From the NCBI RefSeq assembly GCF_019599145.1, contig NZ_CP080647.1, forward strand, positions 1,240,001-1,304,000: a stretch of DNA of 64,000 bases, read 5' to 3'. Made by a program: the position numbers and the translations under genes. Shown here in pieces: positions 16,804-61,771 of this stretch. How positions within the stretch are numbered: the first letter of the stretch is position 1; each line of letters begins with the position of its first letter. The stretch is from Streptomyces akebiae (GTDB taxonomy: Bacteria > Actinomycetota > Actinomycetes > Streptomycetales > Streptomycetaceae). Below the pieces are notes generated by a model. That model was given only the letters and a program-made list of their open reading frames with translations. It had not been told where the DNA came from and ran no database searches.

Positions 16804-19007
16804 TGCGGGAAAGACGTTTGTGGGCGGCCCTGCTGGCGGCCCTGCTGATGGTCCTCGGGCTCACGTCGACGCCCGCCTCCGGCCGTACGGACGGGGCGCG
16901 GGAGAAGGCCGCCGCCCAGGTGCTCACCTGGACCGCCGGTGACGACATCACCAAGTACCTGACCGCGCCGCAGACCGCCGTCGCGGGTCCGGCCACCCTG
17001 GTGTTCGAGAACAGCAAGGCGACCGGCAACACCATGGGGATGCCGCACACGTTGACGTTCGACGTCTCCGACCCGGAGTACAACAACGACGTGCCGCTCA
17101 ACATCCTGGCCAACCCGGGCGACGACCAGGGCGGCCGGCACACCGCCGAGGTCACGCTCGCCCCCGGCCGCTACCGCTACTACTGCACGATCCCCGGGCA
17201 CGGCCAGATGCAGGGCATCCTCGTGGTGACCGAGGGCACCGGCGAGGACACCACCGCGCCGGAGACCTCGGCGGAGATCACCGGGACGCAGAACAGCGCG
17301 GGCGCGTACGTCGGTTCGGCCTTGGTGACGGTGAAGGCGAGCGACCCGGGCGGCTCGGGTGTCGAGCGGATCGAGTACGCCGTCGGTGACGCCGGAGCCT
17401 GGCTGCCGTACACCACGCCGGTGGTGGTCAACCAGGTCGGCACGCACAGGGTCCGCTACCGTGCGGTCGACAAGGCGGGCAACACGGCGGCGGAGAAGAG
17501 CGTCGCGTTCACCGTCGTCGCCCCGCCGACCGACGACACGACCGCGCCGGAGACCTCGGCGACGGTGGCCGGCGAGAAGAACCCCCAGGGCGACTACGTG
17601 TCCATGGCGACGGTCACCGTCTCCGCGTCGGACACCGGGTCGGGGGTCAACACCATCGAGTACGCCCTCGGCGACTCGGGGGCCTGGCAGACATACACGG
17701 CGCCCGTGATGGTGCACGAGGTCGGCACGCACAAGGTGCGGTACCGGGCCACGGACAAGGCGGGCAACGTCGCCGCCGAGAAGAGCGTCGGCTTCACCGT
17801 CGTCGCACCGCCCGTCGACGACACCACGCCCCCGGTGACGGGCGTGACCGTCGAGGGCGACCGGAACTCCGCCGGCGCGTACCTGAAGAGCGCCAAGGTC
17901 ACCGTCAGCGCCACGGACCACGGCGGCTCGGGTGTCGCCGCCGTCGAGTACTCGCTGGACGGCGGCCCCTACCTCGCGTACACCGCGCCCGTGGTGGTCG
18001 ACCGGGCGGGCACCCACACGGTCGCGTACCGGGCGAGCGACAAGGCGGGCAACACGGCCGCCGCGCGCTCGGTCAGCTTCACCGTGGTGGCGGGCGGTGG
18101 GGTTCCCGCGCCCAACTGCGCCGAGTACGACGAGAGGTTGACGGTCTTCGTCGGCACGGTCGACTCGGGGGTGCCGAACCGGGTCACGAACAACCGGTGC
18201 CGGATCAACGAGTTGATCGAGGACGAGAAGGAGTGGACGTCCCACGCGCTGTTCCTGAAGCACGTGGACGCCGTCCTCGACAAGCTGTTCCGGGAAGGGG
18301 TCGTCGACCTGCGCGAGTACACGGCCGTGAAGGAGGCGGCGGAGGAGTCCGGCATCGGCAGGCCCGGTCAGACGGAGGGCTACCGCACGATCCTGGACGG
18401 CACGGCCGAGTCGTTCGCCAAGTGGCAGCAGGTGGGCGGCGGTTCGTTCGGGCTGAACACCGACGGCTCGATCACCTCGGGGACGACGAAGGCCGGGCTC
18501 GGCATGCTGTGGTTCCCCGAGCGGAAGTACGGCGACTTCTCGCTGCGCCTGCAGTGGCGTGACGACGCGCCCGGCACGTCGAACGCCAACTCCGGTGTGT
18601 TCGTGCGCTTCCCCTCGGTCCACGACCATCCGGAGGAGTCGCGGCCGGAGTGGGTGGCCATCAAGTACGGCCATGAGGTGCAGGTCCTCGACCGGCCCGA
18701 CGGCGACATGTACAAGACGGGGTCGGTCTACGGCTTCGACCGGGTGGGGCTCGCCGGTGCGGGCGTCACCCAGAAGGGCACCTGGAACGACTACGAGATC
18801 AGGGTGGTCGACCAGCACTACTCGGTCTACCGCAACGGAATCCTGATCAACGAGTTCGACAACATCGGCGGGCAGGACTTCACCCCGCCCCGCTCGGACG
18901 ACCCGGGCACGGACGGGCGACGGTTCGCCTCCGGCCACATCGGGCTCCAGGTGCACGGCACGACGGATGTCGTCTCCTACCGCGACATCCGGATCAAGGA
19001 ACTGTAG
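16803..19007 (+). CDS. Secreted plastocyanin-like, Ig-repeat, DUF1080 protein
   Basis: A 734-residue multidomain secreted protein. A signal peptide (AALLAALLMVLGLTSTPASG) leads to a cupredoxin domain (residues ~35-145) whose type 1 copper site is visible: His in MPHTL, then C-x4-H-x4-M in CTIPGHGQM. Three Ig-like OmpL47/chitobiase-type repeats follow, each with DTTAPETS, YVS/YVG, YRA-DKAGN and AAEKSV motifs. The C-terminal ~200 residues are a DUF1080/3-keto-disaccharide hydrolase concanavalin-like fold (GMLWFPERKYGDFSLRLQW, NSGVFVRFP). With the upstream dehydrogenase this looks like a copper-linked extracellular sugar-oxidation pair. Confidence 0.9.
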   Translation: MRERRLWAALLAALLMVLGLTSTPASGRTDGAREKAAAQVLTWTAGDDITKYLTAPQTAVAGPATLVFENSKATGNTMGMPHTLTFDVSDPEYNNDVPLNILANPGDDQGGRHTAEVTLAPGRYRYYCTIPGHGQMQGILVVTEGTGEDTTAPETSAEITGTQNSAGAYVGSALVTVKASDPGGSGVERIEYAVGDAGAWLPYTTPVVVNQVGTHRVRYRAVDKAGNTAAEKSVAFTVVAPPTDDTTAPETSATVAGEKNPQGDYVSMATVTVSASDTGSGVNTIEYALGDSGAWQTYTAPVMVHEVGTHKVRYRATDKAGNVAAEKSVGFTVVAPPVDDTTPPVTGVTVEGDRNSAGAYLKSAKVTVSATDHGGSGVAAVEYSLDGGPYLAYTAPVVVDRAGTHTVAYRASDKAGNTAAARSVSFTVVAGGGVPAPNCAEYDERLTVFVGTVDSGVPNRVTNNRCRINELIEDEKEWTSHALFLKHVDAVLDKLFREGVVDLREYTAVKEAAEESGIGRPGQTEGYRTILDGTAESFAKWQQVGGGSFGLNTDGSITSGTTKAGLGMLWFPERKYGDFSLRLQWRDDAPGTSNANSGVFVRFPSVHDHPEESRPEWVAIKYGHEVQVLDRPDGDMYKTGSVYGFDRVGLAGAGVTQKGTWNDYEIRVVDQHYSVYRNGILINEFDNIGGQDFTPPRSDDPGTDGRRFASGHIGLQVHGTTDVVSYRDIRIKEL

Positions 19008-49027: not shown

Positions 49028-49227
49028 GCTGCCCGGCCCTCTGTGGTGGTCCCCGCGGTGCTGCTCGGCTCATTACCCCGCCCATGCAGCATCCCGGCTT
49101 CGGCTGCGCGGCAAGGGCGCCTCCGCTCGCCCGCAGGCAGCCAGGCCCAGAAGCAAGCGTCGACGCCGTCGACAACCCACGCCAAGTCAACGCACCCTTC
49201 CAGTTTCAGGAGATCAAGCACACGTGA
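49024..49227 (+). CDS. 67-residue translationally coupled small ORF
   Basis: Starts at ATG 49024 within the previous stop (ATGA), with GAGGAAG five bases before it, and stops inside the parA start (GTGA). The product (MSCPALCGGPRGAARLITPP..., ending FQFQEIKHT) has no recognisable domain. The double overlap and ribosome site argue that it is translated, though it could serve only to couple parA translation. Confidence 0.5.
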   Translation: MSCPALCGGPRGAARLITPPMQHPGFGCAARAPPLARRQPGPEASVDAVDNPRQVNAPFQFQEIKHT

Positions 49228-49937
49228 ACGAGAACACCCGTATCAAGACCCTGGCCGCGGCCACAGCCCGCGCCTGGGACGCCTTCGTGATCGTCGTCGG
49301 CATGCTCAAGGGCGGCACCGGCAAGACCACTTCCGCCTGGTTCATCGCCCTCTACTACGCCGTCGTCCTGGAGCTGCCGACGCTGCTGCTGGACGCCGAC
49401 GCGACCAGCCAGTCCGCCTACGACTGGTTCAAGGTTGCCCAGGCCGAGGGCTTCGAGATCCCCGAGAACCTGGTGGTCGAGCGGTACCCGTTCGACGACA
49501 TCGCCGAGTACATCCGTGAGAAGCGGTCCGAGTTCGGCGCGATCGTGGTCGACGCCGGCGGCGGCAGCTCCCGCATCTTCCACGAGGCTGTTACCGAGGC
49601 GAACCGGCTGATCGTGCCGGTCGCCCCCACCAAGATCGAGCGCCGCAAGCTCGTGGCCACCTTCGACGAGGCGGAGCGCGCCGCCGCCCGCAACGAACGC
49701 GACGTCACGGCCCATGTGGTGCTGGTCAAGGCCGACGACCGCACCAGCCTGCCCCGCACGGCGAAGGACAAGCTGCTGGAGCCCGCCGAGGGCGAGGGCA
49801 TCGGCCCGGAGCGCGACGAGCCGTTCCCGCTCGCCGAGACCGTCATCCACTCCTGGGTGCACTACATGGAGGCCTTCGGCGAGGTCCCGACCGAGCTGAG
49901 CGAGTACGCCGAACTGATGAAGGAGCTCACGGCATGA
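49224..49937 (+). CDS. parA: ParA-family partition ATPase
   Basis: A 237-residue ATPase from GTG 49224 with AGGAG upstream. The deviant Walker A is MLKGGTGKTTSAW, the A' region LLLDADATSQSAYDW, and Walker B AIVVDAGGG. The size is that of short plasmid-type (type Ib) ParA proteins, which pair with small RHH centromere-binding proteins rather than HTH ParB. That fits the RHH-like genes downstream. Its stop overlaps the next start (ATGA). Confidence 0.88.
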   Translation: MNENTRIKTLAAATARAWDAFVIVVGMLKGGTGKTTSAWFIALYYAVVLELPTLLLDADATSQSAYDWFKVAQAEGFEIPENLVVERYPFDDIAEYIREKRSEFGAIVVDAGGGSSRIFHEAVTEANRLIVPVAPTKIERRKLVATFDEAERAAARNERDVTAHVVLVKADDRTSLPRTAKDKLLEPAEGEGIGPERDEPFPLAETVIHSWVHYMEAFGEVPTELSEYAELMKELTA

Positions 49938-50791
49938 GCGAGCGTATGAAGCCCCCGGCACGCCGCGCCGGCCGCACCCTGGGCGGGGCCAAGAAGGCGA
50001 CCCCACCGCCCCCTCCCCCGGCCGCCGAGCTCACGCCCGAGCAGTTCGCCGCCGAACAGGCCGCCGCCCAGGGCGAAGGCCGTCCCGCTGCCAGCGAGCC
50101 GCACGTTCAGCCCGCTCCTGTCACCGTTCCCGCCGAGGCATCGGCACAGGGCCGGACCGAGGCGGTGCCCGAAGTGGCACAGAGCTCCGCCCAGCCGACT
50201 GCTGAGGCGACTGGCCCCGTGCCGGAGCCGACCGTCAGTCAGTCGGTTCGCCCGGCCATCGCCTCCCCCGAGTTGAGGACGGGGGCCGGTGGGGAGCCGA
50301 AGGAGCGGCAGGTGCCGCCTGTGGTCCCGGGTGTCGAGCCGGCTGTCCCTTCGGTCCAGCCCACGCAGCCGGCCGAACCTGCTGTGCAGCATGGACCGTC
50401 CCCTGCCACCTCCGCAGCTGCTGGCGCGGCTCCGGCTGCCGAAGTTGCGGTTCGCCCGGCTGTTCCTCCGGTGGCAGGCGGTACGGCGTTCCCGATAAGG
50501 AACGAGGGTCCGGGGGCTCACCAGGAACAGGACATTCGATCGCAGGAGGCGCCCAGCGAGGGGGCTCCCTACGCTCACGGTCCCGGCCGTCCCAAGGACA
50601 TTCCTGAGGTCGCCGTCGTTCTCAACCAGCGCATCATCGCGCGGGAGAGTCTCGACTCTTCGGTTCCCGCTGCGCTGAAGTTGAAGAAGCGGATCAAGCG
50701 CTTCGCGCTGGACAACGAACTCGATCACCTGCCCATCGGCGACATCGTCTCGGTCGCGCTGGACGAGTGGCTCAGCGCCCGCGGCTTTTGA
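49934..50791 (+). CDS. RHH-like centromere-binding protein with long disordered N-terminus
   Basis: A 285-residue protein: residues 1-~235 are Pro/Ala/Glu-rich and presumably disordered (opening with a basic MSERMKPPARRAGRTLGG that could contact ParA); the last ~45 residues form a compact domain (SVPAALKLKKRIKRFALDNE, then GDIVSVALDEWLSARGF) with the strand-helix-helix pattern of ribbon-helix-helix proteins. A paralogue of the C-terminal domain is encoded 126 bases downstream. Together with ParA this predicts a type Ib partition system. Confidence 0.72.
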   Translation: MSERMKPPARRAGRTLGGAKKATPPPPPPAAELTPEQFAAEQAAAQGEGRPAASEPHVQPAPVTVPAEASAQGRTEAVPEVAQSSAQPTAEATGPVPEPTVSQSVRPAIASPELRTGAGGEPKERQVPPVVPGVEPAVPSVQPTQPAEPAVQHGPSPATSAAAGAAPAAEVAVRPAVPPVAGGTAFPIRNEGPGAHQEQDIRSQEAPSEGAPYAHGPGRPKDIPEVAVVLNQRIIARESLDSSVPAALKLKKRIKRFALDNELDHLPIGDIVSVALDEWLSARGF

Positions 50792-50810
50792 CGCAGCGCT
50801 CATCTCTCAG

Positions 50811-50847
50811 GGGGTCCGCGAACGCTTCTCTCGGTCGCGGACCCCCA
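50811..50847 (+). terminator. Terminator after the first RHH gene
   Basis: Perfect 12-base arms GGGGGTCCGCGA and TCGCGGACCCCC with a 13-base loop, 19 bases past the stop. Confidence 0.85.
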
Positions 50848-50853
50848 TCCCCC

Positions 50854-50901
50854 CGACTATTCCACTAGTCCACTAGGCGGCTAGCTAGTCGACTAGTGGG
50901 C
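50854..50901. promoter_or_regulatory. CTAG octad array, candidate centromere/operator
   Basis: CTAG, normally very rare in such GC-rich DNA, occurs at 50865, 50873, 50881, 50885 and 50893, phased by 8. Octads read CGACTATT, CCACTAGT, CCACTAGG, CGGCTAGC, TAGTCGAC, TAGTGGGC, and the ends form the inverted repeat CCACTAGTC/GACTAGTGG. Phased 7-8-base repeats are typical binding sites for RHH partition proteins (omega, ParG). It lies between the two RHH genes. Confidence 0.75.
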
Positions 50902-50917
50902 CGCACTGGAGTACTCC

Positions 50918-51229
50918 ATGCCCGATCTCTCTCGCCACGCCCGTCAGCTGCGTGACCTGGCTGACGCTCTCGACGCTCAATCCGACCTGTCCGACGATCC
51001 GTTGGCGCCTCATCCGGACACATTGGAGGTCATCAATGGCCGCCATACCAGTCGTGGGCAGATCAACTACGCCGTCCCCGACGCTCTCCAACTCCAGCGG
51101 CGCATCCGCCGTTACCACGCGGACCATGGCGTGCAGCACGGAGACATCGTCGCGATAGCGCTCGACGCATTCCTTCGCGCCAAGGGCTATCCACCCGACC
51201 TCCCCTCTGCCAAGGCGGACGCGTCGTGA
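50918..51229 (+). CDS. Second RHH-like protein, paralogue of the partition protein
   Basis: A 103-residue protein; ATG 50918 has GGAG upstream. Its C-terminal domain (YAVPDALQLQRRIRRYHADH, GDIVAIALDAFLRAKGY) aligns with that of the 285-residue protein: VP-AL-L--RI-R and GDIV--ALD--L-A-G. The N-terminal half is short and acidic. It may autoregulate the array or compete for it. Its stop overlaps the start of the HNH gene (GTGA). Confidence 0.72.
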   Translation: MPDLSRHARQLRDLADALDAQSDLSDDPLAPHPDTLEVINGRHTSRGQINYAVPDALQLQRRIRRYHADHGVQHGDIVAIALDAFLRAKGYPPDLPSAKADAS

Positions 51230-51855
51230 GCAGAGCATCCGATCAGCTCCTGCTGGAAGACATCGCCCTCCACCAGCGTCCCTCAGACACGTATGCCGAG
51301 CAGCTTTCGCTCCTTGGGGAGCCGATACCGATTCGAATCCCCGCGGAACTTTGGCGTGCCTGGTTGCACAACGAGGATGTTGTCGCAAGGTTCGAAGCCA
51401 AGCGTTACGTCAGGTCGGCGGACCGATGTTGGCCGTGGACGGGAGCAGTCAGTTCGACGGGCCATGGGTCCTTCCGCGCGGCGAGCCTTCCTGGGCCGTC
51501 CCGTCGTGGAACCGTGCCGGCTCATCTGTTCGCCTACCAGCTCGCCAATGGAGTGATAGACCGAACTGGCTGGACCGGTGCCGAGGACCCGGTGGTGTGT
51601 CACACGTGCGATTTCCACGGTTGCACTAACCCTGCCCATCTCCGGCTCGGGACAGCAGCAGAGAACCGCGTGGAATGGTCGATGCGCCGGGGCAATCCCC
51701 ACGGTCCGCTTGCGGATACCCGTGGGGCTGCTGGGCGGACACGTGCCATTGCTGAGGCGATCCGTGCAGGACTCCGCGCGGGTGAGTCCGCCGACGAGAT
51801 TGAGCACCGCATCCAGGCCGCCGAGGAAGCAGGCCTCCCGCTCACTCTCTGGTGA
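51226..51855 (+). CDS. HNH endonuclease-like protein
   Basis: A 209-residue protein from GTG 51226. The middle has the HNH_3/homing-endonuclease pattern: CWPWTGAVSSTGHGSF, VPAHLFAYQLANG, VCHTCDFHGCTNPAHLRLGT and EN...RRGN, giving Cys and His ligands around the metal/zinc finger. The C-terminus (IRAGLRAGESADEIEHRIQA) looks like a small helical DNA-binding tail. Such genes are often mobile or phage-related; its coupling to the RHH gene is unusual. Confidence 0.78.
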   Translation: MSRASDQLLLEDIALHQRPSDTYAEQLSLLGEPIPIRIPAELWRAWLHNEDVVARFEAKRYVRSADRCWPWTGAVSSTGHGSFRAASLPGPSRRGTVPAHLFAYQLANGVIDRTGWTGAEDPVVCHTCDFHGCTNPAHLRLGTAAENRVEWSMRRGNPHGPLADTRGAAGRTRAIAEAIRAGLRAGESADEIEHRIQAAEEAGLPLTLW

Positions 51856-51902: not shown

Positions 51903-52577
51903 TCACGCCGTGTGGGCGTGAGCCACCGCAAGCGCTGCGGCTTCGGCGAGGGTCTCGGCGACAGGGACGCCGCTGCGGCGGAGGACGTCGGGGTGCGTCA
52001 GGCCGCCCGCGTACGGCACGGGGTGGACGTGATTGGCGAACGCAGCGCGAATGTCGTCAACCGTGTCGCCGATGAGGACGATCGGCCGGTCCCCGATGCT
52101 CTGCCGCAGCATCTTCACGTGTTTCGCAAGGGGCTGCTTCTTGCTCCTGGAGGACGGGCCTGTGCGTCCGTCGGCCCGCAGGAACAGGGAGGCGACGCCC
52201 AGGCCGGAGATGTGCTGGGTCAGGAAGGCGTGGGCGCTCAGGGACAGTACTGAATGGCTGCAGCCGCTTCGGATCAGCCTCGTAAGGAGTTCCTTGGTTC
52301 CAGGTATGAGCTGGGCCGGTGGCCGTCGGGAGTGGTAGGTCTGGAACGCCACGCTCGCCCGCGTCCGCTCTCGATCGGTCAGTGCGCGCCCGAGTATGGC
52401 GGCGCACATGGCGGGGACGGATGTGGCGAAATGACGCCGGACGGTTTCGAGATCGACCGGCTGGGCCCCCAGAGCAGTCAGTGCTGCGTTCACTGCATCG
52501 ACCTGGTGCTGGACGTCGTCGGCAAGCGTGCCTCTCCATCCCCAGACCAGGTGCGGCCGGCTGAAGTTCCGTGGCAC
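51903..52577 (-). CDS. HAD-superfamily protein lacking the nucleophilic Asp
   Basis: A 224-residue HAD-fold protein from GTG 52577. The family motif I, normally VWDWNGTLxDD, here reads VWGWRGTLADD: the nucleophilic Asp is Gly13 and the second position Arg15. Motif II (VLSLS), motif III Lys (SKKQPLAKH) and motif IV (VLIGDTVDDIRAA) remain. It is therefore probably not a phosphatase, but a binding or regulatory protein. It is the last gene of the EgtD/ATP-grasp operon, 22 bases after the preceding gene. Confidence 0.8.
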   Translation of the reverse strand: MPRNFSRPHLVWGWRGTLADDVQHQVDAVNAALTALGAQPVDLETVRRHFATSVPAMCAAILGRALTDRERTRASVAFQTYHSRRPPAQLIPGTKELLTRLIRSGCSHSVLSLSAHAFLTQHISGLGVASLFLRADGRTGPSSRSKKQPLAKHVKMLRQSIGDRPIVLIGDTVDDIRAAFANHVHPVPYAGGLTHPDVLRRSGVPVAETLAEAAALAVAHAHTA

Positions 52578-52599
52578 GGGGCGTTGCTTCCTCTCGTGA

Positions 52600-53910
52600 T
52601 CAAATGAAGGGTACGGCGGTGGAAGAGCAATCAGTAGTGCTGATTGCTGTGAACATCTCCATCAGGGCCCGGATATGCCGGTAGTCCGTCTCGATCGCCT
52701 CGGCCTCCGCGTGGGCAAGGACGATCTCGCAGGCCTCGCCGTCAAATGAGGGAAACCCATCGCTGGCTATGCACGAGTGCTGGTCTGCGGACACGCACAC
52801 TGCTGTGGGGAGCGCGGCAAGCTCGCCGCGTAGACCTGGCCAGGGCACTTCCCCCTGTGGTGCGTTCACGTAGATTCGGGCCACGCGGCAGCCAGTGCTG
52901 TCACGGCTGCTTCGGTAGGCGAAGAAGGCTCCGTCCAGGTGCGCGTCGATCGGGTCGCGGCCTGTGATCTTCCATACGGCTTCGTCGGCACGTGATCGGT
53001 GAGTGACGACGCTGGCGGACAGCAGGACCGGTCCGCGCTCAGGCTCGAACGCGACGTGGCATGAAAGGGGCCCCGATGTCACGCCCAGAGTGTCCAGAGC
53101 GCGGCACACGTACAGCGACAGTCGGCGGGCCAGAAGGCCGTGCCGGTGCAGGAGGTCGGTTCGGTCGAGCAGGCCTGTTGGAGCGTGATGGTGTGCCCAG
53201 ATGCCGGTAACAGCATGCCGAGGACCGTCGGGGCCGAGCTGCGTGACGGTGTCGACCACGTACTGCCGCCCCTCCACGAGCTCTCGCAGGACGAGGGAGG
53301 CATCCCCGCTGTGGTGGTAGGCAGCTTGCTGGATCTGCGGCCAGGCCGATGTGATCTGCTGCTCGGTATGGCAGTTGATCGGCCCTGCAGGAACGCCGAC
53401 TGCGGCGGAGGACAGCAGGTAGGCCGACGCCTGATGGCAGTCCGTCCACTCAAGAGCCTCGGCGAGACTGGTCGTCCGTAGAGTGCGGGGCACGGCAACC
53501 CCTGCCCGGGACAGGGCGCTTGCTTGAGCACCTCGGTCGGTTCGGAGCTGGGCGGAGCCGGGGATGCCGGTGCTGGGGAGGCAGAGTTGCCAGGCGATCC
53601 GCTCGGCCAGCTCAACGCCAGCTGGGCTTGCCGCCACGATTGCTTCCACGCCAGCCGTTCGCAGCTTCTTGACGGTGCGACGCAGATCGCCGTCGTACTC
53701 GATGACGTCGGTGTACGCCTGGTTATCCGCAACGCTGCGGTAGGCAGGGGGCCTTGCATCAGAGCCCAGGGTGACCGCGACAGTCTCGCGTCCCCGGCGC
53801 GCGAGCGCGTCCGGGTAGCCGGAGCTCGCTTGTGGGGCAATGACTGCGACGGTCGTCGTGCCGGCCGGATAGAGGGCCGGTGCCGCGAGTGCAGCACGGG
53901 CGGTGGCCAT
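52600..53910 (-). CDS. ATP-grasp-fold protein without catalytic residues
   Basis: A 436-residue protein from ATG 53910, GGAGG upstream. The overall ATP-grasp layout is recognisable (AVIAPQASSGYPDALARRG; SRAGVAVPRTLRTTSLAEAL; LVLRELVEGRQYVVD), but key positions are gone: the ATP lysine strand reads AYLLSSAAVGVP, and the Mg-binding block, normally ExxxRxxx...E-x-N-x-R, reads CHVAFEPERGPVLLSASVV. It follows a canonical ATP-grasp gene by 41 bases. I infer a non-catalytic partner or a protein with altered function. Confidence 0.72.
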   Translation of the reverse strand: MATARAALAAPALYPAGTTTVAVIAPQASSGYPDALARRGRETVAVTLGSDARPPAYRSVADNQAYTDVIEYDGDLRRTVKKLRTAGVEAIVAASPAGVELAERIAWQLCLPSTGIPGSAQLRTDRGAQASALSRAGVAVPRTLRTTSLAEALEWTDCHQASAYLLSSAAVGVPAGPINCHTEQQITSAWPQIQQAAYHHSGDASLVLRELVEGRQYVVDTVTQLGPDGPRHAVTGIWAHHHAPTGLLDRTDLLHRHGLLARRLSLYVCRALDTLGVTSGPLSCHVAFEPERGPVLLSASVVTHRSRADEAVWKITGRDPIDAHLDGAFFAYRSSRDSTGCRVARIYVNAPQGEVPWPGLRGELAALPTAVCVSADQHSCIASDGFPSFDGEACEIVLAHAEAEAIETDYRHIRALMEMFTAISTTDCSSTAVPFI

Positions 53911-53951
53911 CGGGCAGCCTCCAAAGATCGGTACGGGGGGGGAGGGAGAGA

Positions 53952-55259
53952 TCACCGTGTGCAGCTCGTGGTGTGCACGGGGTGGGCAACGCGCACGGAG
54001 AGGTGGTCGGCGACCAGGGACCGGCGTTTGGCGCAGTCTGCGGCCGTGGCGCCGGTGACGACCCAGTGCGCGATGCGGTCGTCGATGCTGGCGCGAGGTG
54101 GCGCGGTCACCTGAGTGCCGACATCACGTGTCCAGACGAGCCGTTCAAGCCACAGCTGATCGTGTAGGGCTCCGTGCACGTCTAGCCGTTCGATGTACCC
54201 GCTGTGCTCGGGATACAGGAAGCCGATCGCGGCGGCTTCCGAGCGAGTGGGGGCCAGGTCGGGTATCCCTCCGGCGGCGAGTGTCGCCAGTGCCTGTGCC
54301 AGGTTGACGCCGGTAGCCCGCTCGACGAGGAGCGGGATGAGGTCTCCTGCGGGGCGGCCGTTGACCTCGATCACCCGGGGACCGTCGGCCGTCAGCCGCA
54401 GCTCGACGTGTAGGACACCCCGGCTGAGCCCAAGGGCGCGGACTGCCGCGGTCACGACAGCGGCGAGGACGGGGTCGCAGAGCAGGGGGTCCGCTGCGTC
54501 GACGCTGTGTCCGATCTCCTGGAACTGCGGTTCGCGGCCGAGGGACTTGCGGGTGACCGCCACAATCCGCACCTGTCCGGGACCCAGCACCACGGTTTCC
54601 ACACTGATTTCGGGACCTCGTAGGTACTCCTCGACCAGGACGCCGGCCACGGACCAGGCCTCTAGCCCCAGCACGCTGTCCACTAGGGCGCGGTGGAAGA
54701 CCGCGCGTACGTCCTCGTCGCTATCGGCCCGCAGGACCCCCGCGCTTCCCGCCCGACCTCGCGGTTTGACGACGACGGGATAGCCCAGTCGACGGGCGAT
54801 GGTCACCGCCTGGTCGGCGTCCTGCGCAAGGTACGAACTGGCGGAGGGAACACCGTGCTCGGCCAGGAGGCGCCTCGTGACAGCCTTGTCACGGCAGGCG
54901 GCAGCCGCTGCCGGGGAGTTGCCCGGCAGGCCAAGCCGGTGCGTGAGTCGGGCGGCGAGTTCGACGAAGTGCTCCATGTAGGTGGTCACGCCGGCCACGC
55001 CGAGTTGGACGGCGGCACTCATGAGGAACGCCTCTGCGGCCTCGGGGTCGTGCAGGTCGACGGCCGCCTGGGCGGCCAGGTAGGGGCGGGCCCACTTGGG
55101 TGGGGTCTGGTCGATGAGCACCACGGGCCGGACGCGGGCGATCTGGCGCAGCACGTACTCCCTGAATTCCGGTGTCCCGGCGCCCAACAACAGGATGGGA
55201 CGGACGGCCGAGAGGTCGTCCTGGCCGGAATGCGCGTCGAATGGTGTGAGGTCCTTCAT
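53952..55259 (-). CDS. ATP-grasp carboxylate-amine ligase
   Basis: A 435-residue enzyme from ATG 55259 (MKDLTPFDAHSGQDD). N-terminal Rossmann-like domain (PILLLGAGTPEFREYVLRQI), then ATP-grasp domain with Lys165 and the glycine loop (GYPVVVKPRGRAGSAGV), VLVEEYLRGPEISVETVVLG, and the metal/catalytic set E286, E298, N300, R302 (GVLHVELRLT...VIEVNGRPAGD). Relatives such as L-amino-acid ligases join a carboxylate to an amine via an acyl phosphate. Being next to an EgtD-type methyltransferase, it may ligate hercynine or another betaine to an amino acid or amine. Confidence 0.85.
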   Translation of the reverse strand: MKDLTPFDAHSGQDDLSAVRPILLLGAGTPEFREYVLRQIARVRPVVLIDQTPPKWARPYLAAQAAVDLHDPEAAEAFLMSAAVQLGVAGVTTYMEHFVELAARLTHRLGLPGNSPAAAAACRDKAVTRRLLAEHGVPSASSYLAQDADQAVTIARRLGYPVVVKPRGRAGSAGVLRADSDEDVRAVFHRALVDSVLGLEAWSVAGVLVEEYLRGPEISVETVVLGPGQVRIVAVTRKSLGREPQFQEIGHSVDAADPLLCDPVLAAVVTAAVRALGLSRGVLHVELRLTADGPRVIEVNGRPAGDLIPLLVERATGVNLAQALATLAAGGIPDLAPTRSEAAAIGFLYPEHSGYIERLDVHGALHDQLWLERLVWTRDVGTQVTAPPRASIDDRIAHWVVTGATAADCAKRRSLVADHLSVRVAHPVHTTSCTR

Positions 55260-55327
55260 TGCCGCATGACCCTTCACATCGAGGAACCGGGGAGTGCTTG
55301 GTCCTGTGGGGGCAGTTGTCGACCACG

Positions 55328-56350
55328 TCATGACGGCCTGCCACTGGGGGAAGGCCGCAGCGACGTGTACGGCCTGGCACCAGCCCGTGGAGGCAGGGGG
55401 CGTGCGAGTGCGAGGCCGTAGAGCGGTCCGGAAGTCCACCACCGCGTCAGTTCCAGGCCTGAGTGAGCCAGTTCATGGCGTACGCCCTGCTCGCGGAACT
55501 TCGCCGAAACCTCCGTCCGCAGGTCCTCGCCCGCCGCAAAGTCGATCGCCAGGTCGAGCGCGGGAATCTTGACGGTCTGATCCGTGCGGGACCTCAGCCG
55601 CATCTCGATCCACTCGTTCGTCGCGTCCCACCGGGCGACGTGCTCGAAGGCATCGAGATCGAAGTCGGCGCCCAGCGCCCGGTTCACCACGCTGAGCACG
55701 TTCTTGTTGAACGCCGCTGTTACGCCGGCTGCATCGCTGTAGGCGGCGACGAGTACCTGCTCGTCTTTGACCAGGTCAGCGCCGAGGAGGAGGGCGTCGC
55801 CGGGCGAGAGCAAGGAGCGTATGGAGGACAGCAACCTGGCGCGCTCAGCAGGCACGAGGTTGCCGATCGTGCTTCCCAAGAACGCCAGGAGTCGCGGTCC
55901 TGGCGTGCCCGGCAGGGCGAGGCCGGTGGTGAAGTCGGTGATAAGGGCATGGATGTTCAGGCCGGGCCGCTGCGCGACCAGCCTGTGCCCGGCCTCGGTG
56001 AGCGCGCTCTCGCTGACGTCCACCGGCACGTACGTGTCCAGGTCCGGCATGGCGTCCAGCAGGTACCGCGTCTTCTCGGACGAGCCGGAGCCCAGTTCGA
56101 TCAGGGTGCGGGCCCCGGTCACTTCGGCGATGTCGGCCGAGCTGGCCATCAGCAACTCGCGCTCGGCGCGGGCGGGGTAGTACTCGGGCAGCTCAGTGAT
56201 CTTCTCGAACAGCTCGCTGCCGTGTGCGTCGTAGAACCACTTCGGCGGCAGTGTTTTCGGTGTGCGCGTGAGGCCGCGCAGGACGTCGGCGCGCAGGGCG
56301 GCGTCCGCGGCCTCCTCGGGCAGGGTGCGGGTAATCAGGAATGGGCTCAC
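55328..56350 (-). CDS. EgtD-type L-histidine N-alpha-methyltransferase
   Basis: A 340-residue SAM-dependent enzyme from GTG 56350, with AGAGGAG nine bases upstream. The family opening KWFYDAHGSELFEKITELPE is followed by the SAM loop LIELGSGSSEKT. Residues that bind histidine in mycobacterial EgtD appear conserved: Asn164 in GSTIGNL, Tyr204 in AAYSDAAGVTAAFNKN, and Glu285/Ser287 in LRTEVSAKF. It should trimethylate histidine to hercynine or act on a close analogue. A ~25-residue Pro/Arg/Ser-rich tail extends past the usual end. No egtA, egtB, egtC or egtE gene is nearby, so this is not an ergothioneine operon. Confidence 0.85.
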   Translation of the reverse strand: MSPFLITRTLPEEAADAALRADVLRGLTRTPKTLPPKWFYDAHGSELFEKITELPEYYPARAERELLMASSADIAEVTGARTLIELGSGSSEKTRYLLDAMPDLDTYVPVDVSESALTEAGHRLVAQRPGLNIHALITDFTTGLALPGTPGPRLLAFLGSTIGNLVPAERARLLSSIRSLLSPGDALLLGADLVKDEQVLVAAYSDAAGVTAAFNKNVLSVVNRALGADFDLDAFEHVARWDATNEWIEMRLRSRTDQTVKIPALDLAIDFAAGEDLRTEVSAKFREQGVRHELAHSGLELTRWWTSGPLYGLALARPLPPRAGARPYTSLRPSPSGRPS

Positions 56351-56376
56351 AGAATGGGCTCCTCTTGTGCTTGCGG

Positions 56377-57621
56377 TCAGGCGTGGGCGGCAGCGAGTGC
56401 AGGAACGTCGGGGGTAAGGCGCCTTCGGGCGGTGGCGAGAATCAGCGCCGCGGCGGCTCCTCCGGCTGGTAGGAGGAGCTGGGTGTGGGTGATGCCTGCG
56501 GCGGCTGTGCCGATCGCGCACCCGATGTCCAGGAAGGCGACCAGCAGGGCGTGGGCCTCTGTGGTGTGCCCACGTGGTGCGAAGGTGCTGGTCATGACGA
56601 ACGCCGCGCTGAGCAGGGGGGCCATGGCCAAGCCGGGGACGGCCGCGGCGTACAGCGTCGTCGTGGGGGTTGCTGCGGTGATCACGGGAATCCAGCCGGC
56701 AGCGAATCCGGCGGACAGGACGATCAGGTGCCCGGCTGTGCTTCCTCGCCAGGCTCGCGCCCCGTAGGCGAGCCCGCCCAGGAGGGCGCCGCAAGACAGA
56801 GCTGTGGGAAGGCCTCCGGACAGTTCCGGGGCATTGAACTGGTCAGCCGCCTCAACTGCCAGGGGGGTAAGGGCACCGATGGTGACCCCGACACACACCA
56901 TCGCCAGGTACAGCGCCCGAAGGCGAGGCGACCTGATCGGGCCGAGCCAATCGGGATGCGTGGGACCGGAGTCGCCGGTGTGAGCACGGGTGACTGGGGT
57001 GCTCACGAATAGGGCGGTGCCAAGGACTCCGACGGCCGCGGTCGCCACGAGGGCCCACGAAGCGGACGTCGCCGTGACGATCGTGGCCACCAGCAGCGGG
57101 CCGACGACGTAAATGAGCTCTTCAGTCCCGGAGTCCAGGGCCAGCGCGACCCGCTGGTGGGCGGACGAAGGCATCATCCCCCGGGCGCCCCACAGCGTTC
57201 TGAGCGCTGCGTCAAGCGGGGGCCGGGTTGCTCCTGCGACCGCCACGGCGGCGAATGCCCACCAGCCCTTACCTGGCCCGGCAGCCAGGGCGACGAATGC
57301 TGTACTGCTCAGGGCGGCGCCCACGGTGAGCGCATGCTTCTGTCCGTAGTGGTCGATCAAGCGGGCGCTGAGTGGGCCTCCGATGGCGTTGGCCACCAGG
57401 TACACCGCGGCGAGCGGGCCAGCCGATGTTCCGTACTGAGCGCCGTGGTCGGCGCTGAGGAGTATTGCCAGCGGGGCCATCCCTGTGGGCAGTCGCCCGA
57501 TGAGCGACCCGACCAGCAGTTGTGCCGCGTGGGGCACACGCAGGACATCGCGGTACCGGACTGCGGAGGGCGATCCGGTGGCGGTCGCCGGCGCATCTTT
57601 GAGTACCGTCACGGCTGCCAT
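56377..57621 (-). CDS. MFS transporter 1
   Basis: A 414-residue, 12-helix major-facilitator protein from ATG 57621. Typical features are ARLIDHYGQKHAL after helix 2 and a hydrophilic mid-loop. It overlaps the upstream 137-residue gene by 13 bases and precedes the methyltransferase by 26, so it belongs to the same operon, most likely exporting the product (or importing the substrate). Confidence 0.88.
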   Translation of the reverse strand: MAAVTVLKDAPATATGSPSAVRYRDVLRVPHAAQLLVGSLIGRLPTGMAPLAILLSADHGAQYGTSAGPLAAVYLVANAIGGPLSARLIDHYGQKHALTVGAALSSTAFVALAAGPGKGWWAFAAVAVAGATRPPLDAALRTLWGARGMMPSSAHQRVALALDSGTEELIYVVGPLLVATIVTATSASWALVATAAVGVLGTALFVSTPVTRAHTGDSGPTHPDWLGPIRSPRLRALYLAMVCVGVTIGALTPLAVEAADQFNAPELSGGLPTALSCGALLGGLAYGARAWRGSTAGHLIVLSAGFAAGWIPVITAATPTTTLYAAAVPGLAMAPLLSAAFVMTSTFAPRGHTTEAHALLVAFLDIGCAIGTAAAGITHTQLLLPAGGAAAALILATARRRLTPDVPALAAAHA

Positions 57622-58022
57622 GCCTGGACGTTTCCGCCGCGGCTAGCGGTGGGCGAGACGGGCGCCGTGGCCGCGGGATGGAAGGCCGACTCCCATCCGG
57701 GGGTGTTCCACCAGGCACTGTGTGCAAGGCAGCGAAGAGCCCAGCCGATGGCGCTGACCTGGCCGTTGAAGAAGTCTTTCTCGGTGGCCGCGGCGAGTTC
57801 GCGCTTCTGGTTCCACTCGGTGTAGAGATCGAGCATTCCCGCTGCGAGCTTCCGCTCGGCGAGGCAGCCGGTCGCTTCGACTTGGGCGAGGCGCTGGGCA
57901 AGGAACTGCGCGAAGCGAGCGTCGCGCTCGCGTGCCCAGGTCTCGTCGCGGAGTGTGGGCGTGAACCGAAGGGTCGCCTGTGGGTAACCGCTGGTTTGCC
58001 TCGGCCGGTGCGGCGTGCTCAT
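57609..58022 (-). CDS. Unknown 137-residue protein in the EgtD operon
   Basis: ATG 58022 follows AAGGAGA. The protein is helical with a conserved-looking core (FTPTLRDETWARERDARFAQ; AERKLAAGMLDLYTEWNQKR; GWALRCLAHSAWWNTPGWES) and a polar C-terminal tail. No domain is recognised. The overlap with MFS transporter 1 indicates co-translation. Confidence 0.7.
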   Translation of the reverse strand: MSTPHRPRQTSGYPQATLRFTPTLRDETWARERDARFAQFLAQRLAQVEATGCLAERKLAAGMLDLYTEWNQKRELAAATEKDFFNGQVSAIGWALRCLAHSAWWNTPGWESAFHPAATAPVSPTASRGGNVQAWQP

Positions 58023-58143
58023 TGTGCGGTGTTCTCCTTGTGCGTCGGTGGGATGTGACGGTCTGTGGGCATGACCCGGATTGCCTGCCGATGTGCGGCT
58101 GGGGCGTAGGCGCCGACGGCGTGCTCGGCCGCAGTGAGGCCCG

Positions 58144-59391
58144 TCATGCGGATGCTCTGGGTGTGCGTACTGGGCGGTGCAGGAGCGCGGTCAACGGCAG
58201 GCAGAGAGCTGCGCCGAGGAGGCCGGTCATGAGGGTCGTCAGGGCAACGAGGTGGTGGCCGCCGTGGGCGAGGGCCCATCCGCCGAGTGCGGGGGCGCAA
58301 AGAACCGCGGCCGCGAGCGTTGTGCCCCAGATGCCCGCGTACACGCCTCGGCTCGACGGGGGCGCGATCCTGTTCAGGATGTCGGTGGCGGCGACGAAGG
58401 CAACGATCTCGCCTGGTACCGCCAGCGCTGCGGCGGCGCCGTAGCCGGCGGTCGAGGAGGCCAGGCCGGCGAGGCCCATCCCTGCGCCGAGGATGATCCC
58501 GCTGGCGCTGAGCAGCCCCACCATGGGGGCGGGGCGCTTGGCCCGGCGTACAAGCCAGGGGTTGAGGAGGGGGGACAGCCCGATCACGGCGGCGGCGCTG
58601 GCTACCTGAGTCCACCCGTAGGCCGTCGGCGGCAGACCGTCCTGGGCCATCATCATCGGGAGGACGGAGAACAGGGCAGCGACCGGTGTCAGGATCAGAA
58701 GGCTCGCCAGCCACAGGAGCCACAGGAGAGGGTCGGTGAAGGCTTCCCGGTGCCCTCTGCGCCCGGGTGCGTGTGCCGGGACGGACGGTGGGATGACTCG
58801 CAGTGCGACGACGGCGAATGCGGCGCACACCAGTGCGTTGAACCAGAACAGCACGGGGATACCGACCGGCTCTGCCAGGACTCCGCCGACAAGCCCAGTG
58901 GTTGCGGCGCCGAGGTTGACGGCAAAGTGCCGCCAGCCAGTGAGGTATGCGCGACCCGGTTCGTCTGGGATGGTGTCGGCGACCACCGCGGACACGATCG
59001 GGCGTGGCGCGTCGTAGACGAGGCCGGAGACGGCAGCCGCGACAGCGAGGGCCGTTGGGGTGTGGGCCTCGGCGAGGAGTGGAAAGCCCACGGCGGCGAC
59101 CGCCATGGCGCTCGCGAGGGTGGCCCGGCGGCCGATCCTGTCGGCCAGCCACCCGCATAGCAGCTGGCCGGTGAACCAGCCGGCGCCCCAAAGCGCCAGA
59201 ACGGTACTCGCAGCCGCCGTGTCCAGATGCAGTTCGTCCAGACGGTAGGGCAAGTACGGATAGACGAATCCGGCGGCGCGCACGGCGAACGTGCCGATGA
59301 GCAACGCCCAGATGACCGGAGGCCACCGCTTCGGCGCCGGGGATGAGGGTGGGTCGCTCAGTGTCTGGGGGGATGTGGCTGTGGCAGGCAC
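58144..59391 (-). CDS. MFS transporter 2
   Basis: A 415-residue, 12-helix protein; GTG 59391 has GGAG five bases upstream. The MFS signature GWLADRIGRRATL lies between helices 2 and 3. It differs from transporter 1, so the operon carries two distinct carriers, one perhaps for export and one for uptake or precursor exchange. A 121-base gap separates it from the next gene. Confidence 0.88.
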   Translation of the reverse strand: MPATATSPQTLSDPPSSPAPKRWPPVIWALLIGTFAVRAAGFVYPYLPYRLDELHLDTAAASTVLALWGAGWFTGQLLCGWLADRIGRRATLASAMAVAAVGFPLLAEAHTPTALAVAAAVSGLVYDAPRPIVSAVVADTIPDEPGRAYLTGWRHFAVNLGAATTGLVGGVLAEPVGIPVLFWFNALVCAAFAVVALRVIPPSVPAHAPGRRGHREAFTDPLLWLLWLASLLILTPVAALFSVLPMMMAQDGLPPTAYGWTQVASAAAVIGLSPLLNPWLVRRAKRPAPMVGLLSASGIILGAGMGLAGLASSTAGYGAAAALAVPGEIVAFVAATDILNRIAPPSSRGVYAGIWGTTLAAAVLCAPALGGWALAHGGHHLVALTTLMTGLLGAALCLPLTALLHRPVRTPRASA

Positions 59392-59462
59392 GCAAACTCC
59401 AGGAGCCAGAGGCTGCGGCGCTTCTCGGCGCCGGGGCGGGGAATTGGAATGGACCCGGCCGG

Positions 59463-59816
59463 TCAGCTCCCGTAGTCACGAGCAGAACTCGCGCGGGGGT
59501 GAACTGCGTAAGCAGCAAGGGCAATTGGCCTGTTGATCACCAGATCGCCTCGGTGCTCGGCTTCGGCCAGGGCGCGCACGGACGACTGCCCGCGCGGAAA
59601 GTCGGCTGCTGGTCCGGGGCGGTCGCCGCAGCCGGGCACCGCACAGTCGCCTGTCACGGTCACCGGCACCCCATTCACCGACCGCACCCGCTCTCCGTGA
59701 TCGGACAACGTCTGCAGGGGGACGCCAGGTCGTTCGCGAAAGAGCTGGGGCCGCCGATGCCGAAGTCGTGCGAACGCCTTCAAGCGAGTCGTGCGCCGGT
59801 GTCGAAGGATGTCCAC
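59463..59816 (-). CDS. Unknown 117-residue protein at the operon head
   Basis: GTG 59816 follows GGAG by six bases, and it lies 71 bases upstream of transporter 2 on the same strand. The product is basic at first (VDILRHRRTTRLKAFARLRH), with a CAVPGC pair and DFPRGQSSVRALAEAEHRGD near the end. No family is recognised. A regulator, a small partner or a precursor peptide are all possible; coding status itself rests on the ribosome site and position. Confidence 0.45.
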   Translation of the reverse strand: MDILRHRRTTRLKAFARLRHRRPQLFRERPGVPLQTLSDHGERVRSVNGVPVTVTGDCAVPGCGDRPGPAADFPRGQSSVRALAEAEHRGDLVINRPIALAAYAVHPRASSARDYGS

Positions 59817-60104: not shown

Positions 60105-60464
60105 CTACGGCCGCTTCGGATAGGCCGGGGGCGGGGAGACCTCGTAGGGGTTGACGCAGTAATAGATGGCGTACCCGCGCACGCGCTTTCCGTCCGAGCG
60201 GCGCGTCACGGTCCCGCGCGAGTACCAGGTCTTCTCCCTGACCTTGTATGCGAACTGGTCGACCCGGACCTTGTCTCCCTTGTATCCGATGCCGACGACC
60301 GTGCTGCTCTTGCTCGGGCTCTTGTGGAACTTCACCGCGCTGCACGAAACCTTCATGGTTGCGGTGTCGTAGGCCTGCGCTGCCGGCGCAGCGGCCAGGG
60401 CCCCACCGGCGAGCGCGAGGCCGAGTGCTCCTGCCGCGATCCTGCGGCGGTTCCGGACGATCAA
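60105..60464 (-). CDS. Small secreted SH3-like protein
   Basis: A 119-residue protein from TTG 60464, with GAGGGG seven bases upstream. A signal peptide (IVRNRRRIAAGALGLALAGG...APAAQA) leads to a ~80-residue beta-rich domain with two cysteines (KVSCSAVKFHKSPSKSSTVV; YAIYYCVNPYEV) of bacterial SH3 type, probably disulfide-linked. Role in wall binding is inferred from the fold only. Confidence 0.75.
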   Translation of the reverse strand: MIVRNRRRIAAGALGLALAGGALAAAPAAQAYDTATMKVSCSAVKFHKSPSKSSTVVGIGYKGDKVRVDQFAYKVREKTWYSRGTVTRRSDGKRVRGYAIYYCVNPYEVSPPPAYPKRP

Positions 60465-61012
60465 GGTGGTCCCCTCACTGCTGCTCGGGCGGCATTCGTG
60501 GATGCGGACCCTCAGAGCCCGCCACAGCGCCGGTCGCACGGCGGTTGGCGGCATGCGAGCACCCCAAGCTCCACATCCATAAACACCTGTAGATGACAAG
60601 TCACGACCATAGCCGCCGGGCCGCGATGGGTCGACCCCCTTTCATAAACACATGACGAGATATGCAGGGAGTGGGGGCCGAGGGCACGGCCGGCCGGATG
60701 GACTGAGCGCACAGGCCCCGACCCATGACCACCGGTCGGGCGCACTGCCCATTAGCCCGATATGTGCTAGATTCAAATAAACACCTGTTGAGAAAAAGGC
60801 AAGGTCAACCCACGACTTCTCAGTGTGTGAGAGGGTCTCGGGAAAGCGGGAGTCGAGCCAGTGGCCTAGACCTGTCTCCCGGTTGCGAGCTGCATTGCAT
60901 GACTGCTTGACGCGACCTGCCTGCGAAGTGATATTCACGTGCGTGGATGGCGACAGCGTTCGCGCATCACCCATAATGATCAAGCTGCACAGGAGAGGAG
61001 GAGGGGCCCACG
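60465..61012. other. 548-base divergent region with three ATAAACAC repeats
   Basis: AT-richer than its surroundings and without a supported gene. ATAAACACCTGTAGA (60579), ATAAACACATGACGA (60644) and ATAAACACCTGTTGA (60777) are direct repeats. TGCTAGATT (60765-60773) is an extended -10 candidate for rightward transcription. Confidence 0.6.
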
Positions 61013-61771
61013 ATGCCGGGAACCGGCGGTGACGGCGCGAACAAGCCGCCGCGCACGCTCGCGGAGAAACTGTCAAGGCTCCGTGAAGCACGCGCACCTG
61101 AAGGCGGGAAGCCGCCGTCCTGGGACGCGCTGGCAAAGCAGATCTCCGACAAGACCGGAGTTGCCGTCTCGGGCGCGTACCTGTGGGAGCTGGGAACCGG
61201 CAAGCCGGGAACCAACGTAACCCTGAAGCACCTGAAGGCCTTCAAGGAGTTCTTCGGCCGCAGCATCTCCTACTTCGTCGACGACGAGGTGGCCTTCGAG
61301 GACGATGAGCAGGCGCAACTGGCCCTCCTGAAGGAGCTGAGCCGCCTGGGGATCAAGCAGATCCGGCTGCAGAACATGGAGGGTGACGCCAGCCAGGAGA
61401 CGGTCACGGACCTTCTCGGGCGGCTGCAGACGCTCGACACCCTGCGCAACACAGACGTCCGGGAGATTGCCCTGCAGGTGACCGACTTGACGGCCAAGCA
61501 GCGGGAGGCGCTCACCAGCCTCATCGGCAAGCCCTCACTGCTGGACGTTCTCCCGCGAACGGTTGGCCTTCTCGAAGCAGCGGCTGGACTCGATGACGAG
61601 CAGATTGCTTCGACCGCCCGCGCTCTTGGTCAACCCGATGTTCTCCAAGCGCTCCAGGACGAGGGGGTGTGCGAGATCGCGCGGCAGTGCCGCGAATTGC
61701 TGCCATCGAGCAGGGAGGCAGTCCTGTCGATGATTGCGCAGCTCGGGCGACTGGAAACCGGCAAGGCTTAG
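61013..61771 (+). CDS. XRE-family regulator, EspR-like
   Basis: A 252-residue protein with GGAGAGGAGGAGG before ATG 61013. The N-terminal ~85 residues are an EspR-type HTH (LAEKLSRLREARAPEGG, SGAYLWELGTGKPGTNVTLK, then FFGRSISYFVDDE). The remaining 160 residues are acidic, Leu-rich and helical, possibly a dimerisation or sensor domain. The ATAAACAC repeats upstream are candidate operators. Confidence 0.85.
   Translation: MPGTGGDGANKPPRTLAEKLSRLREARAPEGGKPPSWDALAKQISDKTGVAVSGAYLWELGTGKPGTNVTLKHLKAFKEFFGRSISYFVDDEVAFEDDEQAQLALLKELSRLGIKQIRLQNMEGDASQETVTDLLGRLQTLDTLRNTDVREIALQVTDLTAKQREALTSLIGKPSLLDVLPRTVGLLEAAAGLDDEQIASTARALGQPDVLQALQDEGVCEIARQCRELLPSSREAVLSMIAQLGRLETGKA

Follow-up and report, generated by a model that had tools for sequence, protein, structure and literature searches.

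Gene content of the locus

The DNA analysed here (the window, a stretch of 64,000 nucleotides; G000:C1:1240001-1304000) belongs to the 10.55-Mb genome of Streptomyces akebiae, and its nearest relatives were found in Streptomyces. This report concerns an operon of eight leftward genes, in the order U117, MFS1, U137, MFS2, EgtD, AG1, AG2 and HAD (Table 1), and in particular the EgtD-type methyltransferase and the transporter MFS2 encoded there. A first-pass annotation had placed the eight genes at positions 51903 to 59816 and had proposed that histidine is trimethylated to hercynine, which an ATP-grasp ligase then couples with an amine or an amino acid before export. All eight open reading frames (ORFs) were found at these positions. 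After refinement of the starts, successive genes from U117 to HAD were separated by 71, 121, -13, 26, 68, 41 and 22 bases. The description of the genes as mostly overlapping or within 70 bases was therefore correct for most gaps and failed for MFS1-U137 and, by one base, for U117-MFS1.

Pfam and NCBIfam models backed EgtD, AG1, the HAD-like protein and the two MFS proteins; no Pfam match was obtained for AG2, U137 and U117. Ratios of nonsynonymous to synonymous substitution rates (dN/dS) were computed for the window genes against the loci L018 (S. canus), L019 and L027 (Streptomyces sp. TRM68367), and were 0.16-0.42 in seven of the eight genes. U117 was the exception and may be less constrained or wrongly delimited. 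Scans of the operon for promoters, terminators and Rfam families gave nothing usable.

Table 1. Features of the operon and its flank, with positions in the window.
Feature	Position	Strand	Basis	dN/dS
HAD-like protein, 224 aa, pseudo-HAD	51903..52577	-	Pfam HAD_2 30.3 bits; motif-I Asp replaced (WGWRGT)	0.17-0.20
AG2, degenerate ATP-grasp protein (pseudo L-amino-acid ligase), 436 aa	52600..53910	-	ATG start at 53910 from homologues; longest ORF starts 53955	0.32-0.37
AG1, canonical ATP-grasp ligase, 435 aa	53952..55259	-	ATP-grasp_4 66.6 bits; refined ATG start at 55259, longest ORF starts 55442	0.21-0.22
EgtD-type histidine N-alpha-methyltransferase, 340 aa	55328..56350	-	TIGR03438 366 bits; refined GTG start at 56350	0.19-0.20
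MFS2, MFS transporter (EgtD-linked type)	56377..57621	-	MFS_1 54.1 bits	0.33-0.38
U137, unknown, overlaps MFS2 start by 13 bases	57609..58022	-	BLASTP to the C-terminal extension of L149 TrpA	0.33-0.42
MFS1, MFS transporter whose gene leads the cluster family	58144..59391	-	MFS_1 146.6 bits	0.16-0.21
U117, 117-aa ORF, weak constraint	59463..59816	-	no Pfam or NCBIfam match	0.55-0.73
Small secreted-looking protein	60105..60599	-	syntenic in L018, L019 and L027; no Pfam match	0.15-0.21
Divergent protein, presumably an XRE-like regulator	61013..61771	+	syntenic in L018 and L027; no Pfam match	

The operon methyltransferase

The score of the operon EgtD lies well above the cut-off (290.9 bits) of TIGR03438, the NCBI equivalog model for L-histidine N-alpha-methyltransferase, and the EgtDs of loci L146, L152, L153 and L155 exceeded this cut-off likewise. 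With residue numbers set on the Mycobacterium smegmatis EgtD chain, all nine pocket residues checked were retained: Tyr39, Phe47, Tyr56, Thr163, Asn166, Tyr206, Met252 (whose role in the pocket we presume), Glu282 and Ser284. The histidine contacts, as given in the accessible part of PMC8593015, are all among them, with Tyr56, Tyr206 and Ser284 holding the carboxylate, Asn166 the alpha-amino group, and Glu282 as a further contact. The annotated Asn, Tyr, Glu and Ser of the histidine site were thus confirmed in the alignment, histidine is likely the substrate, as had been proposed, and hercynine can be strongly inferred as the product. A changed substrate such as tryptophan or histamine, suggested by TrpA-like and decarboxylase genes in the neighbourhood of relatives, was considered; the pocket residues of the window protein speak against it.

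Among 11 cluster EgtDs (the window protein and 10 others) the pocket was intact except for E282G in L029, Y56P in L155 and F47Y in L153. The Y56P change is also present in the other EgtD of Streptomyces aureus NRRL B-1941 (L117), which comes after a frame resembling EgtC by eye; shared in this way, the change looks typical of a lineage. The L029 copy of MFS2 is divided between two frames, and the EgtD of that locus has Gly for Glu282, as if both genes were decaying together, for which sequencing error may be an alternative explanation.

The ergothioneine locus of the host lies elsewhere. Another EgtD, 78% identical to the operon protein, is encoded at C1:880658-881578, where egtA, egtC and egtD lie together at about 0.88 Mb; for egtB no call was obtained at that locus. 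The absence of egtA, egtB, egtC and egtE from the operon, noted previously, was borne out: none of its eight proteins matched them in Pfam or NCBIfam, and egtA and egtC adjoin the other EgtD. Given this separate locus, the operon EgtD is a second copy. EgtD was matched at an E value of 1e-50 or better in 282 of 295 genomes of the genus. In a search of 16 genomes, ten had one match, five (G000, G141, G095, G284 and G131) had two, and G128 had one match and two fragments of a broken copy. In G128 (locus L196) the broken EgtD gene occupies two frames (14438-15410) near a histidine decarboxylase gene and a DUF6875 gene (16320-18032).

Linkage of EgtD with an MFS transporter

Neighbourhoods were taken from AG1-bearing genomes, named genome contigs and plasmid records with gene annotation as deposited. 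AG1 was matched in 97 plasmid records, and 11 of the neighbourhoods were examined by that match; for AG2 the numbers were 19 and four. The loci form a chosen sample and are not independent; close pairs are L018/L027, L024/L088, L149/L154 and L023/L153. The MFS type at each locus was assigned by the best tblastn match.

EgtD genes outside ergothioneine loci were present at 14 loci: the window, L018, L019, L020, L023, L027, L029, L146, L152, L153, L155, L198, L199 and L200, the broken EgtD of L196 not being counted. In 13 of these an MFS gene lies directly upstream of EgtD, of the MFS2 type in 12 (in two frames in L029) and of the MFS1 type in L200. In the 28 loci with AG1, the MFS2 type occurred in all ten that carry EgtD and in none of the 18 without it. 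At L198, L199 and L200 the MFS gene directly precedes EgtD with a 4-base overlap each, and no AG1 orthologue accompanies the pair; EgtD and MFS2 hence behave as a unit that is independent of an intact neighbouring AG1. MFS2-type proteins scoring above 390 bits were confined to five of 295 genomes (G000, G095, G141, G284 and G131), the same five that have two EgtD matches, and in each of them MFS2 and EgtD adjoin. The MFS2 proteins of L198 and L199 scored 358 and 374.5 bits.

In MFS trees, the second of which left out L155_12862 and L029_5090, the MFS2 group held EgtD-linked rows only (11 rows in the larger tree), with a support of 94/94 when the long row L152 was omitted. The HAD-linked MFS type also formed one group (4/4; support 100 in the larger quick tree). 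Taken together, the partner labels EgtD, TrpA and HAD required two changes on the tree, which is the minimum, compared with a mean of 9.6 after shuffling; the EgtD label alone needs two changes because of L200. Among 13 MFS-partner pairs chosen from annotated plasmid loci, 10 showed 4-base overlaps (EgtD in L198, L199 and L200; TrpA in L149, L153, L154 and L156; HAD in L153, L155 and L203). The other three are MFS2-EgtD pairs with gaps of 7, 47 and 133 bases.

More distant kin of MFS2 are common. With the best six candidates per genome scored, 286 of 295 genomes gave matches at an E value of 1e-30 or better, and among the matches listed, those outside the five MFS2 genomes were 38-43% identical. 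Three such places were inspected: in L192 (7457-8716) and L193 (7050-8363) an MFS gene about 40% related to MFS2 stands directly before a gene which we take to be pafA of the Pup-proteasome region, and in L194 it does not. The neighbourhoods of these three gave no clue to the substrate.

The EgtDs of the clusters have a different history. They do not form one clade (p value of the approximately unbiased test 1.7e-5, quick tree). Those of the window, L018, L019, L027 and L029 form one branch (support 100/100), L020 groups with the EgtD of its own host (97/88; 96 in the second tree), a further group (83) comprises L023, L146, L152 and L153, and the EgtD of L155 pairs with L117 (100). Long branches make the positions of L023 (first tree) and L152 (second tree) less sure. 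The first tree left out L115 and L116 (duplicates) and L118 and L119 (short fragments), and the second used 24 non-cluster EgtDs, part of those retrieved. With MFS2 as a single lineage and the adjoining EgtDs of several origins, EgtD appears to have been replaced by EgtDs of the ergothioneine type, which argues that the reaction remained the same.

The ATP-grasp and HAD proteins

The catalytic assignments of the first-pass annotation were upheld for all three downstream proteins. AG1 is a canonical ATP-grasp protein by its ATP-grasp_4 match and by retention of the Lys and of the E/E-x-N metal ligands (EVN metal motif), and its best relative in the PDB is the L-amino acid ligase BL00235 (3vot, E value 1.5e-25). 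The profile of AG2 matched the L-amino acid ligase 30vh (E value 2.1e-28), and neither the Lys of the ATP-grasp site nor the E/E-x-N metal ligands were present in any of the 10 sequences aligned. The HAD protein has lost both motif-I Asp residues (the DxD nucleophile), in the window as well as in the three orthologues from L018, L019 and L027. The low dN/dS of AG2 and HAD indicates that both, although catalytically degenerate, are maintained at the protein level.

Relatives of AG1 above 470 bits were found in 13 of 392 genomes of the genus. EgtD was lacking at 18 of the 28 AG1 loci, and AG1 was present at 10 of the 14 EgtD loci. On the tree of 28 AG1 proteins the presence of EgtD changes five times, and all five changes are forced by well supported branches. 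The whole plasmids of L198, L199, L200 and L155 contained no match of the AG1 tier, the best scores being 59, 133 and 81 bits and none, respectively; the 59-bit match is the AG2 of L198. Of these four loci only L198 and L199 carry the MFS2 type. Locus L199 was considered as an example of MFS2-EgtD without any ligase and was rejected as such on account of the 133-bit relative of AG1, which lies about 7 kb upstream of MFS2.

A modular cluster family

The operon is one member of a family of modular clusters found on chromosomes and giant plasmids of Streptomyces, in which SH3-type proteins, MFS1, AG1 and AG2 recur and variable genes are arranged around them. Among the 32 loci compared, the MFS1 type was present in 25, AG1 in 28 and AG2 in 20; an MFS1-type gene also precedes L155. 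AG1 was not found in L155-L158. The clusters with AG1 and MFS1 look like a family spread across many Streptomyces plasmids.

The variable set includes histidine decarboxylase (NF002748; L149, L151 and L154 pass the cut-off, and L094 and L155 fall short of it), an aminotransferase that reached no cut-off, TrpA-like proteins (TIGR00262 above the cut-off in L151 and L153), EgtD, HAD, a GNAT_6 protein, P450, PTS EIIC, DUF6875 and isopentenyl transferase (PF01745). A ScbR-family autoregulator and a P450 adjoin one cluster. On the linear plasmid of Streptomyces sp. NBC_00445 (L155:89-3881) a histidine decarboxylase-DUF6875 fusion, an isopentenyl transferase (PF01745) and EgtD stand in a row. A strict mutual exclusion of EgtD and histidine decarboxylase was rejected, as L155 has both and the decarboxylase of L196 lies beside the broken EgtD. 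A further subtype was seen in L090, L096 and L148, where genes for a PTS EIIC permease and a p130-like protein follow AG1, along with a glycosyltransferase-like gene.

TrpA-like genes were observed on Streptomyces plasmids at L149, L151, L153, L154, L156, L198 and L201. Both catalytic acids of the Glu/Asp signature of tryptophan synthase alpha were present in 11 of 18 matches or proteins labelled TrpA (10 matched the strict pattern, and L198 a looser form of it). The signature was missed in L020, L095, L155, L159 and L201 and in the second pieces in L150 and L156, which makes indole uncertain as a product for several loci. The count of TrpA changes on the AG1 tree was not used; the TrpA match of L020 is a U137-like domain only. 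In a comparison of three sequences, U137 was identical at 28 of 89 positions to residues 340-428 of the L149 TrpA (L149:13609-14919; BLASTP E value 9e-14). This likeness to the C-terminal extension of L149 TrpA indicates that a domain otherwise attached to TrpA is encoded by itself in the window, where TrpA is missing.

Flanking genes

Synteny with L018 and L027 extends past the operon to both flanking features of Table 1. The gene at 60105-60599 probably belongs to the cluster neighbourhood, and proteins similar to its product, found beside some relatives, are annotated as SH3 domain-containing. The regulator-like gene at 61013-61771 is possibly part of the cluster. The stretch just downstream of the operon (49224-51855) looks plasmid-like; it encodes a ParA/MipZ-like ATPase and a protein that weakly matches HNH, along with a small unknown ORF.

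Interpretation

We favour, with a confidence somewhat above even, the reading that EgtD and MFS2 form a self-contained cassette for hercynine synthesis and transport within a plasmid-type modular cluster, and that AG1 and MFS1 constitute a separate amide unit. EgtD would trimethylate L-histidine to hercynine, and MFS2 would carry hercynine across the membrane, most likely outward. The cassette would reside in a cluster headed by the genes for MFS1 and for small secreted proteins, within which other enzyme-transporter pairs (MFS-TrpA, MFS-HAD) as well as AG1 and AG2 are gained and lost. Hercynine as the cargo of MFS2 is proposed with moderate confidence. Its outward direction is suggested tentatively; export appears likelier than import in that a producer would have little need to import its own product. 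That AG1 probably makes a dipeptide-like amide exported by MFS1, with AG2 as a non-catalytic partner, is offered as a weak suggestion.

Several observations weigh against this reading. Hercynine is a putative cargo of MFS2, proposed from the genetic linkage with EgtD, and the direction of its movement is conjectural. The occurrence of AG1 near 10 of 14 EgtD loci would also be expected of a coupled pathway. The search for AG1 in the strains of L198, L199, L200 and L155 covered the plasmids only and not the chromosomes, and L198 and L155 keep AG2. The divergent ATP-grasp protein of L199 (L199:112-1326) is 30% identical to AG1 and weakly similar to AG2; its Lys is kept, its metal ligands are replaced, and an adjoining aminotransferase gene on the other strand, another MFS gene and a transposase-family gene lie between it and MFS2, so that L199 is not free of ligase kin. 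At L155 an isopentenyl transferase gene and no MFS gene is found directly upstream of EgtD, and the upstream MFS of L200 is of the MFS1 type. The MFS2 clade including L152 had moderate support (92/83; 89 in the larger quick tree). Finally, the TrpA-linked MFS type is less clear-cut, with L201 outside the main group and with L024 and L157 inside it without TrpA next to them.

The linear pathway of the first-pass annotation, in which AG1 would activate the carboxylate of hercynine and couple it with an amine or an amino acid, the amide then being exported by one MFS protein or by both, is considered unlikely. It would agree with AG1 as an intact relative of the L-amino-acid ligases, with the presence of AG1 at the majority of EgtD loci noted above, and with the window clade, where EgtD and AG1 occur together at 5 of 5 loci and AG1 is the next recognised downstream gene in 4 of 5 (a GNAT gene lies between in L029). 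The distant ligase relative of L199 could be counted in its favour as well. MFS-EgtD pairs nevertheless occur on plasmids without an AG1 orthologue, the larger share of AG1 loci lacks EgtD, and the presence of EgtD shows the five forced changes on the AG1 tree. Hercynine as substrate of the ligase was thus not supported; of the proposed final export step, transport is still likely, and export of a hercynine amide is not the best reading. A still less probable alternative is a single composite natural product, in which EgtD, histidine decarboxylase, the TrpA-like protein, isopentenyl transferase and P450 would feed alternative pieces to AG1 and AG2. Recurrence of MFS1, AG1 and AG2 with exchangeable tailoring genes would fit it, as would the autoregulator and P450 beside one cluster, an arrangement as in secondary metabolism; yet a distinct MFS type tends to go with each of EgtD, TrpA and HAD, frequently with an overlap of 4 bases, and AG1 was not found in L155-L158 or L198-L200.

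MFS transporters are often efflux pumps, and many relatives of the operon are on plasmids. Both facts would suit a protective function, in which MFS2 and EgtD would rid the cell of a histidine analogue taken up from outside, by detoxification or expulsion. The pocket of the window EgtD is, however, the same as that of the housekeeping type, and EgtD is present anyway in nearly all genomes of the genus, so that we regard this explanation as very improbable.

An extension of the favoured cassette is possible and, in our view, rather doubtful. The clusters might be mobile emission islands on giant linear plasmids and chromosomes, built of swappable cassettes of a one-step enzyme with its own exporter, with MFS1 and shared secreted proteins at their head; the EgtD-MFS2 pair would then include the first dedicated hercynine exporter. 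As part of the same doubtful proposal, the cassettes would turn central metabolites into diffusible hercynine, histamine, indole, isopentenyl-adenine nucleotide and amides.

Hercynine is usually regarded as an intermediate. If the cassette reading is true, a hercynine synthase that was recruited repeatedly and is tied to a transporter would give this betaine a role of its own outside the cell. The candidate exporter MFS2 may be of use for ergothioneine production. A transport gene, mfsT1, has reportedly been used to raise ergothioneine in Mycolicibacterium neoaurum.

Comparison with known systems

A literature search covering titles and the starts of abstracts, with few subscription journals, yielded no description of the cluster or of an EgtD-MFS pair. 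Within that scope, the previous statement that no characterised pathway has this gene set still stands. The scleric acid cluster (scl) of Streptomyces sclerotialus, compared by description only, likewise combines a Streptomyces host, an ATP-grasp enzyme that is essential and a single transporter gene; it couples an activated benzoic acid with a proline derivative, and the accessible part of the description mentions no EgtD (PMC13307308). The ATP-grasp L-amino-acid ligases BL00235 (3vot) and 30vh share with the operon the Lys and metal ligands kept by AG1 and the full-length alignment of the AG2 profile to 30vh. AG1 differs from them as a member of a divergent Streptomyces family of putative ligases, and AG2 by the loss of its catalytic residues.

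With the actinobacterial ergothioneine locus egtABCDE the operon has the EgtD step from histidine to hercynine in common, at the high identity to the host's own EgtD given above. It differs from that locus in containing no match to egtA, egtB, egtC or egtE, and the partner of EgtD here is an MFS gene. The bacterial ABC importer EgtU and the human MFS protein ETT (SLC22A4) likewise move a histidine betaine, according to the accessible part of PMC9732360. Both are importers of ergothioneine, and the affinity of EgtU for hercynine is lower by a factor of about 10,000 (PMC9732360), whereas MFS2 is linked to EgtD only and its transport role is putative. An exporter specific for ergothioneine has not been identified in any organism, as stated in the accessible part of PMC12689799, which makes MFS2 a concrete candidate for a histidine-betaine exporter.

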